Origin: a virus
DNA: 32,254 nt
Virus record (IMG/VR): IMGVR_UViG_3300032287_001211
Span: 1-32,254 of that record
Strand: one strand, 5' to 3'
Position 1 is the stretch's first letter. Every line of letters begins with the position of its first letter. The translations under genes and the position numbers were made by a program. Under the pieces are notes generated by a model that was not told the DNA's origin, did not search any database, and saw nothing but the letters and a program-made list of their open reading frames with translations. This document shows, in pieces, positions 2,158-25,465 of this stretch.

Positions 2158-2577
2158 ATGGCAACACCATTAATAAACGGCATCAATTACAGTTGGGCTA
2201 ACGTTAAAGTGATTTTATTCGGGGTTCCTGTTGTGGGAATTACAAAAATCGAATACAAAATCAAACAAAAAAAGGAAAACCAATACGGGGCAGGTTACGA
2301 ACCAATTTCGAGAGGTTACGGGAACAAAGAATACGAGGGAAGCATTGAAATTTATTCGGACGAATTGAAACGAATTATTGCAAGCGCACCAAATAACGAT
2401 CTTATGCAAATACCGCCGTTTAAAATTCATGTACTTTTTGAAAGTGGCGCGGGGGTTTTAGTAACCGAAGACGTTTTAAGTATGTGCGAATTTACGGAAG
2501 AAGGTTTGAGCGCATCGCAGGGCGATACAAAACTTTTAGTATCTTTGCCGTTAGTTATCGGACAAATACAACGATAA
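2158..2577 (+). CDS. Tail tube protein
   Basis: The 139-residue product is rich in predicted beta strands and lies right after the sheath, where contractile phages encode the tube. The core has a pattern seen in tube proteins of this kind: a central stretch 'YGNKEYEGSIEIYSDEL' (about residues 55-71), then a helix and a long hydrophobic strand pair near the C-terminus. It would form hexameric rings stacked inside the sheath around the tape measure. The call rests mainly on position, size and beta character. A hairpin follows the stop, so tube and sheath may be made at a different level from the genes downstream. Confidence 0.78.
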   Translation: MATPLINGINYSWANVKVILFGVPVVGITKIEYKIKQKKENQYGAGYEPISRGYGNKEYEGSIEIYSDELKRIIASAPNNDLMQIPPFKIHVLFESGAGVLVTEDVLSMCEFTEEGLSASQGDTKLLVSLPLVIGQIQR

Positions 2578-2593
2578 ATTAAAAAAAACAATA

Positions 2594-2617
2594 AAACCCG
2601 TCAATTTTGGCGGGTTT
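2594..2617 (+). terminator. Hairpin after the tube gene, possible weak terminator
   Basis: Stem AAACCCG / CGGGTTT, extendable inward by a T-G and a C-G pair. The run after it (TTTATATTC) is poor in T, so it may terminate only partly, which would lower expression of the chaperone and tape measure genes relative to sheath and tube. Confidence 0.6.
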
Positions 2618-2640
2618 ATATTCACTAAATTATTAAAATT

Positions 2641-16047: not shown

Positions 16048-16057
16048 AAAATAGTTT

Positions 16058-16065
16058 TATATTTG
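16058..16065 (+). promoter_or_regulatory. Promoter -7 element before the pseudoknot RNA
   Basis: TATATTTG matches TAnnTTTG exactly. No TTG is found 19 bases upstream, so the promoter is partial. Transcription would begin near 16070, a few bases ahead of the structured RNA at 16079-16165. Confidence 0.45.
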
Positions 16066-16078
16066 CGTTTGTAATTTA

Positions 16079-16165
16079 GTGAGATTTATTACAAAACTAA
16101 AAAAATATTATAAAAATCCGATACGGAATGCCAAATCTCACAATAGGCGGACTGTATCGGATTTT
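16079..16165 (+). ncRNA. Pseudoknotted RNA leader or small RNA
   Basis: GTGAGATTT (16079-16087) is perfectly complementary over 9 bp to AAATCTCAC (16133-16141). AAAATCCGATAC (16113-16124) is perfectly complementary over 12 bp to GTATCGGATTTT (16154-16165). The segments alternate in the order A-B-A'-B', so if both form, the fold is a pseudoknot. Inside stem B there is a 5+5 internal loop (ggaat / ggact) and a short GCC / GGC stem (16130-16132, 16146-16148). The 13-base apical loop begins with A'. Stem B is followed by TTTTACTTTTT and could serve as a terminator. The ATG of the initiator-like gene comes 12 bases after. I cannot assign a known RNA family. Confidence 0.7.
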
Positions 16166-16176
16166 ACTTTTTAATT

Positions 16177-16893
16177 ATGGCTACCGACAAAAAAGGATTT
16201 ATTTTATATTCCGATTTAATACATACAATTGAAAAAATGCCGTCAAACAAAGCGGGCGAATTATTTTTGCATATTTTAAAATATGTCAACGATCAAAACC
16301 CAGTTGCAAACGATATTTTAATTGACATAGCGTTTGAACCGATAAAACAATCGTTGAAACGTGATCTAATAAAATATGAAGACAAGCGCAAACAATGGAG
16401 CGAAGCGGGTAAAAAATCAGCAGAAGCAAGGGCGTTGGCTAAAAACAACGAAAGTCAACAAACGTTAACGGACGTTGAAAGTCGTTCAACGGTTTCAACT
16501 GTTAATGTTAGTGTTAATGTTAATGTTATTCAAAAAAGAATATTATCCGAAATTAAAATTTCGGAAGTCCCTATCGATTTACAATTGTATTTTAAAATTG
16601 CAAAAGATTTTCAAAATTTATTTATTAAAAATCTAAGTCAAAGAAACGCGCCAATAATTAACCAGCAAAAAGCAACTTTTAAAAATTACGTCGATCCGAT
16701 ACGTTTGGCAATTACAAATAACGAATGTACAATAAATGATTTTAGAGACGTTTGGCAATATTTAGACAGCCCGTTGGGTGAATTTTGGAAAACAAATATT
16801 TTGTCAACAGCAACGTTAAGAAAACAAATTCAAAAGTTAGTCATGTCCGCACGCGAAAATAAAAAACAACTAAAAAAAATTGATAAATTATGA
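16177..16893 (+). CDS. Replication protein, DUF6291-like (Lin1244-type N-terminus)
   Basis: The 238-residue protein begins 'KKGFILYSDLIHTIEKMPSN' with 'AGELFLHILKYVND' and 'IDIAFEPIKQSLKRDLIKYE' (to about residue 70), the DUF6291/Lin1244-like domain at the N-terminus of many phage replication initiators. A basic Lys/Ala linker, a Val/Asn-rich stretch (about 105-117, from repeated GTTAATGTT) and a helical C-terminal domain follow, with a basic tail. It is the first gene of the ATPase block and directly follows the structured RNA, so initiation at an origin in or near 16.05-16.2 kb is plausible. It overlaps the next gene by 4 bases (ATGA). Confidence 0.7.
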   Translation: MATDKKGFILYSDLIHTIEKMPSNKAGELFLHILKYVNDQNPVANDILIDIAFEPIKQSLKRDLIKYEDKRKQWSEAGKKSAEARALAKNNESQQTLTDVESRSTVSTVNVSVNVNVIQKRILSEIKISEVPIDLQLYFKIAKDFQNLFIKNLSQRNAPIINQQKATFKNYVDPIRLAITNNECTINDFRDVWQYLDSPLGEFWKTNILSTATLRKQIQKLVMSARENKKQLKKIDKL

Positions 16894-18297: not shown

Positions 18298-18675
18298 ATG
18301 AAAACAAACAAAATTGACGCGCTAATTTATCAATTAACTTCAGGAAAAGCAACCAGCGACAGGGCAAAAATATTATTAGAAATTTCAAAGAAACCAATTA
18401 CAATTGAAAATCTTGTATTGCTAGGTTACAAAATACAAACAGCGTCCGCGCGTTGTTCTGAATTAGAAGAATTAGGAATGATTAAAAAAATGTACAATCC
18501 GACCAATTCTTTTTCATGGTTCCTATTTGTAGAAGATCCGCAGGAACGCGAAGAGTTACGAAATAGAATTGCAAACGATAAAAAAGCGAAATATTTTGCA
18601 AAAGGTTTTGAAATGGGTTATTTTAAATGGGACAACAACGGACAAATTATTGCAAACTTTGAATTAATTTTGTAA
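18298..18675 (+). CDS. Winged-helix-like protein
   Basis: The 125-residue protein reads as a winged-helix domain. Helices 'KIDALIYQLTSGKATSDRAK' and 'ILLEISKKPITIENLVLLGY' precede a recognition-type helix 'TASARCSELEELGMI' (about 44-58) and a hairpin 'NPTNSFSWFLFV'. The pattern 'SARCSELE.LG.I' is common in phage proteins that control replication or transcription and in MarR-like wings. It lies between the ATPase and NinB and shares a base with the NinB start (TAATG). Confidence 0.6.
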   Translation: MKTNKIDALIYQLTSGKATSDRAKILLEISKKPITIENLVLLGYKIQTASARCSELEELGMIKKMYNPTNSFSWFLFVEDPQEREELRNRIANDKKAKYFAKGFEMGYFKWDNNGQIIANFELIL

Positions 18676-19112
18676 TGCAAAAAATAACGATCAGGTCAAA
18701 TGTAAACGGGGGGAACCTAAAAAGAAACCGCAATTTAATTATTGACGCAATTAAAAGTTTTGAGGGTAACGACGTTTTAATAACCTTTGAAAAACCAAAG
18801 AAAAAAAGATCAAACCCGCAAAACGCTTTTTATCACGGCGTAATAATTCCAATTGTACAAAATTGTTTGCGCGAAGCAGGACACACAATGACAAATGAAA
18901 GCACGCACGACCTTATAAAATTAAAGTTTTTAAAAGAAGTAATTTTGACAAACGAAGAAACTGGCGAAATATTAGAACGGGTAAAGTCAACGACGGAATT
19001 GTCAACGTCTCAATTTATGGATTTCGTCGCAGAAATTCGACAATTTACAAACGATTATTTTGGCGTCGATATTCCAGAACCAAACGAAAATCTAACTTTA
19101 CAATTTGATTAA
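18675..19112 (+). CDS. ninB: NinB-like recombination protein
   Basis: The 145-residue protein has the NinB/YbcN pattern: a basic beta-rich start, then 'FEKPKKKRSNPQNAFYHGVI' (about 38-57) with the characteristic R-S-x-x-Q-N-x-x-Y, and later 'TELSTSQFMDFVAEIRQFT' and 'FGVDIPEP' at the C-terminus. In lambda, NinB (Orf) is a ssDNA-binding mediator of recombination that helps displace SSB. It is followed, with a one-base overlap, by a NinG homologue, as in lambda's nin region. Confidence 0.85.
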   Translation: MQKITIRSNVNGGNLKRNRNLIIDAIKSFEGNDVLITFEKPKKKRSNPQNAFYHGVIIPIVQNCLREAGHTMTNESTHDLIKLKFLKEVILTNEETGEILERVKSTTELSTSQFMDFVAEIRQFTNDYFGVDIPEPNENLTLQFD

Positions 19113-19663
19113 TGGAAAATAAAATAAAACCCCGCAGGTGCAAAATATGTAAAGAAGTTTTCACACCAGCCCGACAATTGCAAGGCGTTTGCGGTTATGA
19201 TTGTGCAAAGGCTTACGCAAATAAATTAAAAGAAAACAAAGCTAAACAAGAAAAAAAAGTTTTAAAGGAAAAATTAAAAACGCATAAAGACTATTTGCAA
19301 GAATTTCAAAAGGTTTTTAATACTTACATACGGGAGCGAGACAAAAACAAAGGTTGCGTTTCATGCGGTAAACCATTAAACCAAAAATTTGACGCGGGAC
19401 ATTATTACAGCGTCGGAAAATACCCAAATTTAAGATTTAACACTTACAATGTACATGGGCAATGCGTAGAATGTAACCAGCACCGACACGGAAATATAAA
19501 TGAATATTCGTTGAGGTTGGGCGAACGTATCGGAAACGATAATCTTTTAAAATTAAATGACAGTCGGAACACAGTTACAAAATTGTCAATTCCTGAAATA
19601 GAAGTATTAAAAATAAAATATAGGGAATTAACCAAAATAATTAAAAATGAACAAACAAATTAA
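19112..19663 (+). CDS. ninG: NinG/Rap-like recombination nuclease
   Basis: The 183-residue protein carries two zinc clusters. The first is Cys10, Cys13, Cys27 and Cys31 ('CKICKEVF', 'GVCGYDC'). The second is HNH-like: 'GCVSCGKPL' (Cys82, Cys85), 'FDAGHYYS' (His97) and 'GQCVECNQHRHGN' (Cys118, Cys121, His124). A Lys-rich helix joins them. NinG/Rap resolves branched recombination intermediates. Its pairing with NinB indicates a phage recombination module that may aid late, recombination-linked replication. Confidence 0.9.
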   Translation: MENKIKPRRCKICKEVFTPARQLQGVCGYDCAKAYANKLKENKAKQEKKVLKEKLKTHKDYLQEFQKVFNTYIRERDKNKGCVSCGKPLNQKFDAGHYYSVGKYPNLRFNTYNVHGQCVECNQHRHGNINEYSLRLGERIGNDNLLKLNDSRNTVTKLSIPEIEVLKIKYRELTKIIKNEQTN

Positions 19664-24166: not shown

Positions 24167-25465
24167 ATGGGATTAATTGACAAATCAGTAAAAGGATTTA
24201 GAAATCTTTTTAATTATACGCAAATTTTAGCACCGCAAGAAAACAACCCTAAAAATTTAGGTTCGCGAGTAATGCCTTTACAATTACAACGTATTAAACA
24301 GGACACGTTAACGTGGCGCGAGGGAATAGAAGAAGCCGAAAGGGCTTATGTTCCATTTAGGGTAAAAATGCAGGAAACTTTTGTCGATACAATTTTGAAC
24401 GGTCACGTTTCGGCATGTATTGAACGAAGAAAAGATTTGACATTATTACGTGACTGGCAAATATGTAACCCCGACGGAACCATAAACGAAGACGTTGAAT
24501 TGATCTTAAATTCCGCATGGTTTAATAAATTTATGTCGTTTTCATTGGACGCATTATTTTTTGGTTATACACTTGTAAGTTTGGGAGACATTAAAGACGG
24601 TAAATTTGAAGACATTGAAGTCATTAAACGTTGGAATATTTCACCAGATCGCAAGGTCGTTTCAATGGTTCCTTATGATACAAACGGAATAAGTTTTGAA
24701 GATGAACAATATAAAAACTGGCATGTTTATATTAAAACCGTTAACGATATTGGTTCGTCAAAATGTGGGTTCGGTTTACTTTATTCAGTTGCATTGTACG
24801 AAATATTTTTGCGTAACCTATTGGGTTATAATGGTGACTTTGTCGAATTATATTCACAACCTTATAGAATAGGTAAAACAAACAAAACACAAGGTATTGA
24901 ACGCGACGAGTTCGAAAATGCAGTTGCAAACATGGGGTCGGCTGGTTACGCTATTTTAGACGCAATGGACGACACAATAGAATTTTTAGATAGTTCGTTG
25001 GGCGGTTCAGGATATAAAGGTTACGCCGATTTGGAAGCGCGTATCGAAAAGAAAATTTCAAAATTAATTTTAGGACACGCCGACGCATTAGACAGCACAG
25101 CGGGCAAAATTGGATCCAGTCAAGGCGAGGAAAGCCCAACAGCGCAAGCCTTAGAAGACAAACAAACAAAAGACGGCGTATTTATTACAGACGTTATAAA
25201 TTGCGAGTTATTGCCGAGACTTAGAAAATTAGGGTTTGCAATTCCCGACGGCGTAATGTTTGAATTTAAAAACGATAGCGAACAACACGAAAACAATAAC
25301 AGTATTGTTGACATGGCGGTTAAAATTAAACAGGCGGGGTTACAAATGGATAAAGAATACTTCGAAGAACAAACAGGAATTAAATTATTTGATTTGCCAG
25401 CCGTTGCGTCAAGTCCAAGCCCAAGTCAAAGCGTTAAAAACAGACTGGAAAATTTATACAAATAA
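24167..25465 (+). CDS. Portal protein (DUF935, Mu gp29-like)
   Basis: The 432-residue protein has DUF935 features: 'DTILNGHVSACIERRKDLTL' (about 67-86) followed by 'RDWQI', 'FGYTLVSLGDI', 'VIKRWNISPDRKVV', and 'RDEFENAVANMGSAGYAIL' in the C-terminal half, with 'KISKLILGHADALDSTAGK' near 295-315. It is somewhat shorter than Mu gp29 (about 510). The dodecameric portal forms the DNA channel of the head. It precedes the MuF gene with no gap, the usual portal-MuF pair. Confidence 0.85.
   Translation: MGLIDKSVKGFRNLFNYTQILAPQENNPKNLGSRVMPLQLQRIKQDTLTWREGIEEAERAYVPFRVKMQETFVDTILNGHVSACIERRKDLTLLRDWQICNPDGTINEDVELILNSAWFNKFMSFSLDALFFGYTLVSLGDIKDGKFEDIEVIKRWNISPDRKVVSMVPYDTNGISFEDEQYKNWHVYIKTVNDIGSSKCGFGLLYSVALYEIFLRNLLGYNGDFVELYSQPYRIGKTNKTQGIERDEFENAVANMGSAGYAILDAMDDTIEFLDSSLGGSGYKGYADLEARIEKKISKLILGHADALDSTAGKIGSSQGEESPTAQALEDKQTKDGVFITDVINCELLPRLRKLGFAIPDGVMFEFKNDSEQHENNNSIVDMAVKIKQAGLQMDKEYFEEQTGIKLFDLPAVASSPSPSQSVKNRLENLYK

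Follow-up and report, generated by a model that had tools for sequence, protein, structure and literature searches.

A conserved kissing-loop RNA with a predicted terminator at the head of phage replication operons and other gene blocks

The window, meaning the whole stretch of viral DNA that was analysed (32,254 nt, positions 1 to 32,254 of IMG/VR record IMGVR_UViG_3300032287_001211), carries genes for a contractile-tail sheath (phrog_907) and a Mu-type portal (PF06074), and NinB/NinG genes that follow the replication operon. The element described here lies directly before the first gene of that operon, which encodes a DUF6291 protein (Table 1). The DUF6291 domain makes up only the N-terminal third of this protein, while the C-terminal part has weak PHROG matches to a replisome organizer (E 7.5e-5) and a DnaD-like helicase loader (E 1.2e-4). 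Residues ~120-226 taken alone match proteins of Polaribacter phages (Freya_1, Danklef), which suggests domain exchange among phage replication proteins. A literature search found no paper on DUF6291.

An earlier note on this DNA had proposed a pseudoknotted RNA of about 100 nt with a promoter-like start and a terminator-like end, and the analysis supports it. Both complementary helices that it described (9 and 12 bp) were recovered at identical positions, and the TATATTTG box, the GCC/GGC stem, the internal loop and the T-run are all present. The apical loop of the long hairpin does pair with an upstream strand, as had been claimed, but folding places that strand in the loop of a 5' hairpin (HP1) that had been overlooked, and the pseudoknot is therefore a loop-loop (kissing) complex. 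The 12 bp of the long hairpin stand and are extended to 14 pairs. The kissing duplex between strands K5 and K3 has a predicted energy of -9.5 kcal/mol, and there is no further copy of the kissing word within the window. The -7 element of Flavobacterium johnsoniae occupies -12 to -5 (PMC6847099), and with this spacing G16065 corresponds to -5 and transcription is predicted to start at ~16070, so that HP1 sits at the very 5' end of the predicted RNA. The latter would extend over ~16070-16172 (~103 nt) and end just 5' of the ATG at 16177. Leaders behind the other promoters in the window are short and plain.

Table 1. Features of the element and of its surroundings in the window.
Feature	Position	Strand	Basis and remarks
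-7 promoter element TATATTTG	16058..16065	+	Bacteroidetes consensus TAnnTTTG; box in nearly all homologues
HP1, 5'-terminal hairpin	16068..16095	+	Folding and descriptor; pairs covary in relatives
HP1 stem TTTGTAAT/ATTACAAA	16068-16075 with 16088-16095	+	8 bp; loop 16076-16087
Kissing strand K5 GTGAGATTT, within HP1 loop	16079..16087	+	Partner K3; kissing helix covaries
A/U-rich linker	16096..16112	+	Consensus in relatives near UAAAGAAGUUAUU; composition from class A
Terminator hairpin	16113..16165	+	Folding and descriptor; helices 3 and 4 covary
Terminator outer stem, 14 pairs	16113-16126 with 16152-16165	+	Contains AAAATCCGATAC 16113-16124 / GTATCGGATTTT 16154-16165
Terminator inner stem	16129-16132 with 16146-16149	+	Separated from outer stem by small purine-rich internal loop
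Kissing strand K3 AAATCTCAC, terminator apical loop	16133..16141	+	Complementary to K5
T-run, intrinsic-terminator-like end	16168..16172	+	Sequence; T-rich tails also visible in homologues found without the descriptor
DUF6291 gene, first of downstream operon	16177..16893	+	PF19808, E 3.3e-21
Tail sheath, portal, NinB/NinG (side observation)	632-2155, 18675-19663, 24167-25465		

To collect homologous loci, the DUF6291 protein served as the first query against viral contigs, and an alignment of its N-terminal part as the second. Dozens of DUF6291 loci were obtained, most of which have the same architecture directly 5' of the DUF6291 start codon in a quite different sequence. Among 18 aligned relatives all four helices covary, the 8-bp kissing helix included, and the compensatory changes that the earlier note had proposed to look for in both stems are present. 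Paired cells make up 93.2% of the alignment's base-pair cells, compared with 70.7 ± 1.2 in shuffles; 25 of 28 pairs show double changes, among them 6 of the 8 kissing pairs, and 109 cells are changed on both sides where shuffles give 33. The covariation score is 0.655 (0.213 shuffled), none of 500 shuffles reaches the observed value of any measure, and pairing drops to 51-52% when the partners slide by one column. A covariance model, R1, was built from relatives without the window and without encoding the kiss, and 38 of the 39 loci found with it have at least seven contiguous loop-loop pairs, the remaining one having six. R1 recovers the window element at 16058-16166 with 33.5 bits (E 7e-4).

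An independent search of viral contigs used two DNA patterns that prescribed the -7 box and the 5' half of the kiss and nothing else. It returned at least 134 unique sites, and among the matches listed a complementary 6-mer follows 20-75 nt downstream in 128 of 134, the six sites without a partner resembling unrelated chance sites. Again among the matches listed, 121 of the 128 extend to 8 bp through two free positions, where nine different dinucleotide pairs occur. In the 18 relatives, two positions of the terminator stem are most often filled by U-G, and G-U is frequent elsewhere; only an RNA of the + strand would account for this, a strand with which the orientation of promoter box and T-run agrees. 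It is near certain that the locus encodes a conserved structured RNA with a kissing-loop pseudoknot.

A descriptor that covers promoter, HP1, kiss and terminator together, with a T-rich tail required, scores 79.6 at the element and 48.4 at the next best site of the window, while second-order Markov sequence matched in composition (1.29 Mb) contains no score of 60 or above (maximum 56). The descriptor itself requires the kiss, and a cross-pair test on loci chosen with it was not counted as proof; one row of that set (L001, minus strand) is background. Rfam 15 at gathering thresholds gave nothing at the element in the window and nine relatives, nor did a relaxed E-value (up to 1 or 0.5) in 16 further loci, where two Rfam matches fall away from it. 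The earlier note could name no RNA class for the structure and ranked it as the strongest candidate in the window for something undescribed, and both judgements hold, the second in view of the missing Rfam match. Flavobacterium phage lillamy9-7 also has a DUF805b RNA (RF02914, 52 bits; L130 2315-2349) directly 5' of a PF02195 (ParB-like) gene, and so has two kinds of leader RNA. Two looser resemblances were seen. Window positions 2540-2640, in the tail region, contain a promoter box TATCTTTG, a small hairpin and a GC-rich terminator that immediately precedes the ORF at 2641, with an R1 score of 26.9 bits (E 0.018) and no kiss beyond about 4 bp. In contig L026 (77-143) a promoter box is followed ~60 nt later by a terminator with a UUCG tetraloop (R1 28.7 bits), with no clear kiss.

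Across all loci fetched, the descriptor gives about 159 distinct terminator-hairpin sequences, a few of which may be background. The main subclass (class A) comprises 90 copies with 21 kissing words, and the locus set of the cross-pair test has 42, one of them from the background row. The median distance from the G of the -7 box to the start of HP1 is 6 nt, which puts this start at about +1 or +2. Typical sizes are 6 bp for HP1, 15 nt for the linker, 11 bp for the outer terminator stem and 8 bp for the kissing helix (range 6-10 bp). The kissing helix commonly lies directly against the 5' strand of HP1 and leaves little or no gap to the inner stem of the terminator, so that it could possibly form a nearly continuous stack with its neighbours. 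The conserved unpaired parts are ANUAUA in L2 (a conservation to which, in the class A set, the search pattern itself contributed), AAAGAANUUAUU in the linker and the UGAA/GGAU internal loop of the main subclass. Another subclass (Harreka_1; second copies in L021 and L104) has GAGUA/GAAA as its internal loop, which we take to resemble the AGUA/GAA bulged-G (loop E) module of ribosomal RNA.

The next ORF begins 4-46 nt after the stem (median 18) at 54 non-redundant loci, and TAnnTTTG is absent from every one of these stem-to-ORF gaps. For at least 123 ORFs of the independent set the gap has a median of 23 and a maximum of 51 nt (starts being taken as first ATGs), and the first ORFs fall into at least about 37 BLAST clusters. 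By inspection, the commonest is a DUF4373-like replication organizer, and others are ParB-like proteins, small ORFs, a VirE-like primase, an HNH endonuclease and a helicase. Where DUF6291 genes have no adjacent RNA, R1 often finds one 0.3-3 kb upstream, heading the same gene block. A private leader of the DUF6291 gene, one of the options raised beforehand, is thus contradicted: ParB-like, DUF4373-like, helicase, primase, HNH and many small genes have this RNA in front of them too. DUF6291 as dedicated partner or autoregulator was likewise rejected, the RNA preceding other genes among R1 loci and many families in the pattern search.

About a dozen contigs (L021, L160, L184, L186, L216, L236, L297, L311, L313, L328, L336 and L104) have two copies heading different genes, for example those for an HNH endonuclease or ParB. 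Copies within one contig shared their kissing word in 0 of 10 pairs, compared with 33% between genomes (P 0.019, with a null that is biased in that one copy of most pairs was pattern-chosen). Copies in L021 (5908), L160 (3513), L311 (416) and L154 (4642), each the second of its contig, stand before NUMOD4-HNH homing endonuclease-like genes, and the leader may travel with these mobile genes.

Six isolated phages carry the element before replication genes, and their records annotate nothing there: Olleya phage Harreka_1, Flavobacterium phages 11b, lillamy9-7 and elemoC, Cellulophaga phage phi19:3 and Polaribacter phage Freya_1. In phi19:3, which the descriptor left unscored, the loop-loop complementarity is plain and HP1 is weak. 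The whole genome of Harreka_1 has one copy, while crAss001 (first 50 kb) and Flavobacterium phage 6H have no convincing site. Covariance models found the element in 2 of 299 Flavobacteriaceae and 0 of 395 Bacteroidota genomes, and in 1 of 46 genomes of a further order, this being a locus already known; the counts are lower bounds, with strict filters and models that favour one subclass. The element is rare in bacterial genomes and mainly phage-borne, and under the same filters and models its rarity there led to the rejection of the chromosome as the main home of this RNA.

The anatomy suggests a cis-acting conditional terminator, or attenuator, at the head of early and replication operons, a reading that we would give about an even chance of being correct. 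Transcription would start from the TAnnTTTG promoter and HP1 would fold immediately at the 5' end; while the terminator hairpin was emerging, its apical loop would pair with the loop of HP1 (6-10 bp, usually 8), and the kiss would lock both ends of the ~100-nt RNA into a compact fold ending in an intrinsic terminator. The operon downstream, here DUF6291 and the replication genes, would then be expressed from the leader promoter only upon read-through by the polymerase. The kiss might switch the outcome by altering the kinetics of the terminator, a factor might bind the conserved unpaired parts, or the terminated RNA might be functional itself.

Several findings are in line with an attenuator. 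A predicted intrinsic terminator lies between the promoter and the first gene and no promoter follows it; the gap, a few to about 50 nt, leaves no room for one, and this promoter would therefore drive the operon only via read-through. In some relatives a terminator stands just 5' of the RNA promoter as well (L130, L100 and L135; by eye L098 and L081), so that read-through would be the sole route to the operon. In the genomes with two copies the leaders serve two operons, which was also counted in favour of the attenuator. The terminator hairpin also appears placed to hinder the loading of ribosomes; in one subclass the T-run abuts the ATG, and the hairpin would therefore obstruct initiation too. 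Structure near the start codon inhibits initiation in F. johnsoniae, where natural leaders average 33 nt (PMC6847099). The fold, its conservation, its position and its independence of the gene downstream are all results of the computation. From them we infer termination that is regulated and modulated by kissing. Other points weigh against an attenuator. A classic one would show an alternative antiterminator pairing, and no conserved pairing of this kind was noticed in the alignments; a processive phage antiterminator coming from upstream promoters could make the terminator irrelevant; and compact phage genomes put any small RNA near the next gene.

It is possible, if unlikely, that the product is the terminated RNA of ~100 nt itself, a stand-alone small RNA acting in trans on host or phage RNA or protein and stabilized by its 5' hairpin, its 3' terminator and the kiss between them. 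The selected fold is the complete terminated molecule, which fits such a product equally well and counts to that extent against the attenuator; HP1 begins at about +1/+2, so that both ends would be protected, and the unpaired ANUAUA of L2, the AAAGAANUUAUU linker and UGAA/GGAU could bind a protein. Arguing the other way, the next ORF is always close and co-directional with no promoter between, some genomes have two different copies heading two operons, and there is neither a further kissing word in the window nor a conserved long single-stranded seed. A leader that stays with the polymerase and modifies it to pass terminators, its own included, in the manner of HK022 put or Bacillus EAR, would suit the location at the very 5' end of operon transcripts, the compact pseudoknot and the repeated use before several operons, but we consider it improbable: the terminator is integral to the fold, and the full structure therefore exists only after the polymerase has passed. 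Rather less credible again is a metabolite-sensing riboswitch with the terminator as expression platform, as the earlier note had considered. The structured leader with pseudoknot and terminator and the few near-invariant unpaired positions would suit one; yet no invariant pocket is seen, the kissing words vary widely (90 class A copies have 21), subclasses differ in their exchangeable internal-loop module (either UGAA/GGAU or GAGUA/GAAA), the genes downstream (at least about 37 clusters) have no common pathway and no Rfam riboswitch matches.

The variable complementary loops beside replication genes also recall RNA immunity or incompatibility elements of the P4 CI RNA, P1 c4 or plasmid copy-control type, where specificity against related phages would reside in the variable word. 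The words never shared by copies within a genome (0/10 pairs vs 33%, P 0.019) point in this direction, with a null that is biased, however, by pattern-chosen copies; the rarity of the element in bacterial genomes, by models that favour one subclass, means that resident prophages seldom carry it, and no separate antisense gene was seen, all of which leaves this function very doubtful. A candidate antisense promoter, TAGTTTTG on the minus strand at 16099, was rejected, not being seen in relatives by eye. A DNA element, either a replication origin or a protein-binding dyad, is the least probable of all. It would explain why the structure stands directly before replication genes in the window and most relatives, and an origin had been among the earlier suggestions. 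It is disfavoured by G-U as the commonest pair at two stem positions, which only RNA would use, by the orientation of promoter and T-run, and by the two-copy genomes, where copies stand before unrelated genes such as those for HNH endonuclease or ParB; an origin element would be expected once per genome, and about a dozen contigs have two.

Beyond the attenuator at single operons, a wider proposal can be made only tentatively and is rather more likely to fail than to hold: the element would define a regulatory RNA class of its own, acting during transcription as a switch whose 5' hairpin controls the terminator by kissing its apical loop. Flavobacterial phages would employ it again and again to time replication and other early operons, and the rapid change of its words would prevent cross-reaction between several leaders that share a cell. 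With much covariation and ~159 versions, the element occurs in isolated phages of Flavobacterium, Cellulophaga, Polaribacter and Olleya and is missing from Rfam and from phage annotation. If it does control read-through into replication operons, it would amount to a widespread RNA layer of gene control in phages of the phylum Bacteroidetes, which are poorly understood. The idea is testable at once, as phages with the element have been isolated and F. johnsoniae is a laboratory host amenable to genetics. As a varied natural set of loop-loop pairs, the kissing words might also serve RNA engineering.

No paper combining kissing loop, terminator, phage and Bacteroidetes was found in the literature, and papers on leader RNAs and infection RNA-seq yielded no description of the element. 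In the portion of a survey of candidate bacterial RNAs (PMC2864571) that was compared by text, no match was recognised among Bacteroidetes and phage motifs. Terminator leaders, pseudoknotted leaders and kissing RNAs are known kinds, while an intramolecular kiss between a 5'-terminal hairpin and a terminator loop, with changing words and before many phage operons, appears to have no match among the families tested or considered. Leaders that attenuate by an intrinsic terminator are alike in promoter, structured leader, intrinsic terminator and a first gene within a few tens of bases; the present one differs in that no antiterminator pairing or leader peptide was found and in that the terminator loop is tied to the 5' hairpin by a covarying kiss. 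The P4 CI RNA and the c4 antisense RNA (RF01695) are likewise small phage RNAs with complementary loops near early or replication functions, but they act in trans on separate leader targets, whereas here both loops are in one molecule and Rfam gives no match.

The rep leader of IncI-alpha/IncB plasmids has a hairpin loop that pairs with a downstream structure just before the replication initiator gene, a pairing that activates translation at the rep start and is opposed by an antisense RNA. In the phage leader, by contrast, the partner is the loop of the terminator hairpin, and the analysis identified no promoter for an antisense RNA. Type III toxin-antitoxin loci (ToxI) have the same order of promoter, pseudoknotted RNA, terminator and protein gene. 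The phage RNA is single, without tandem repeats, and is followed by DUF6291 or by genes of many other families, for replication and other phage functions, instead of ToxN, so that it does not belong to this type. Structured RNAs near the start of operon transcripts are known in the HK022 put RNA and the Bacillus EAR element, the latter having a pseudoknot; compared by description, the phage fold differs from both in that its 3' end is a terminator of its own, immediately 5' of the first gene.
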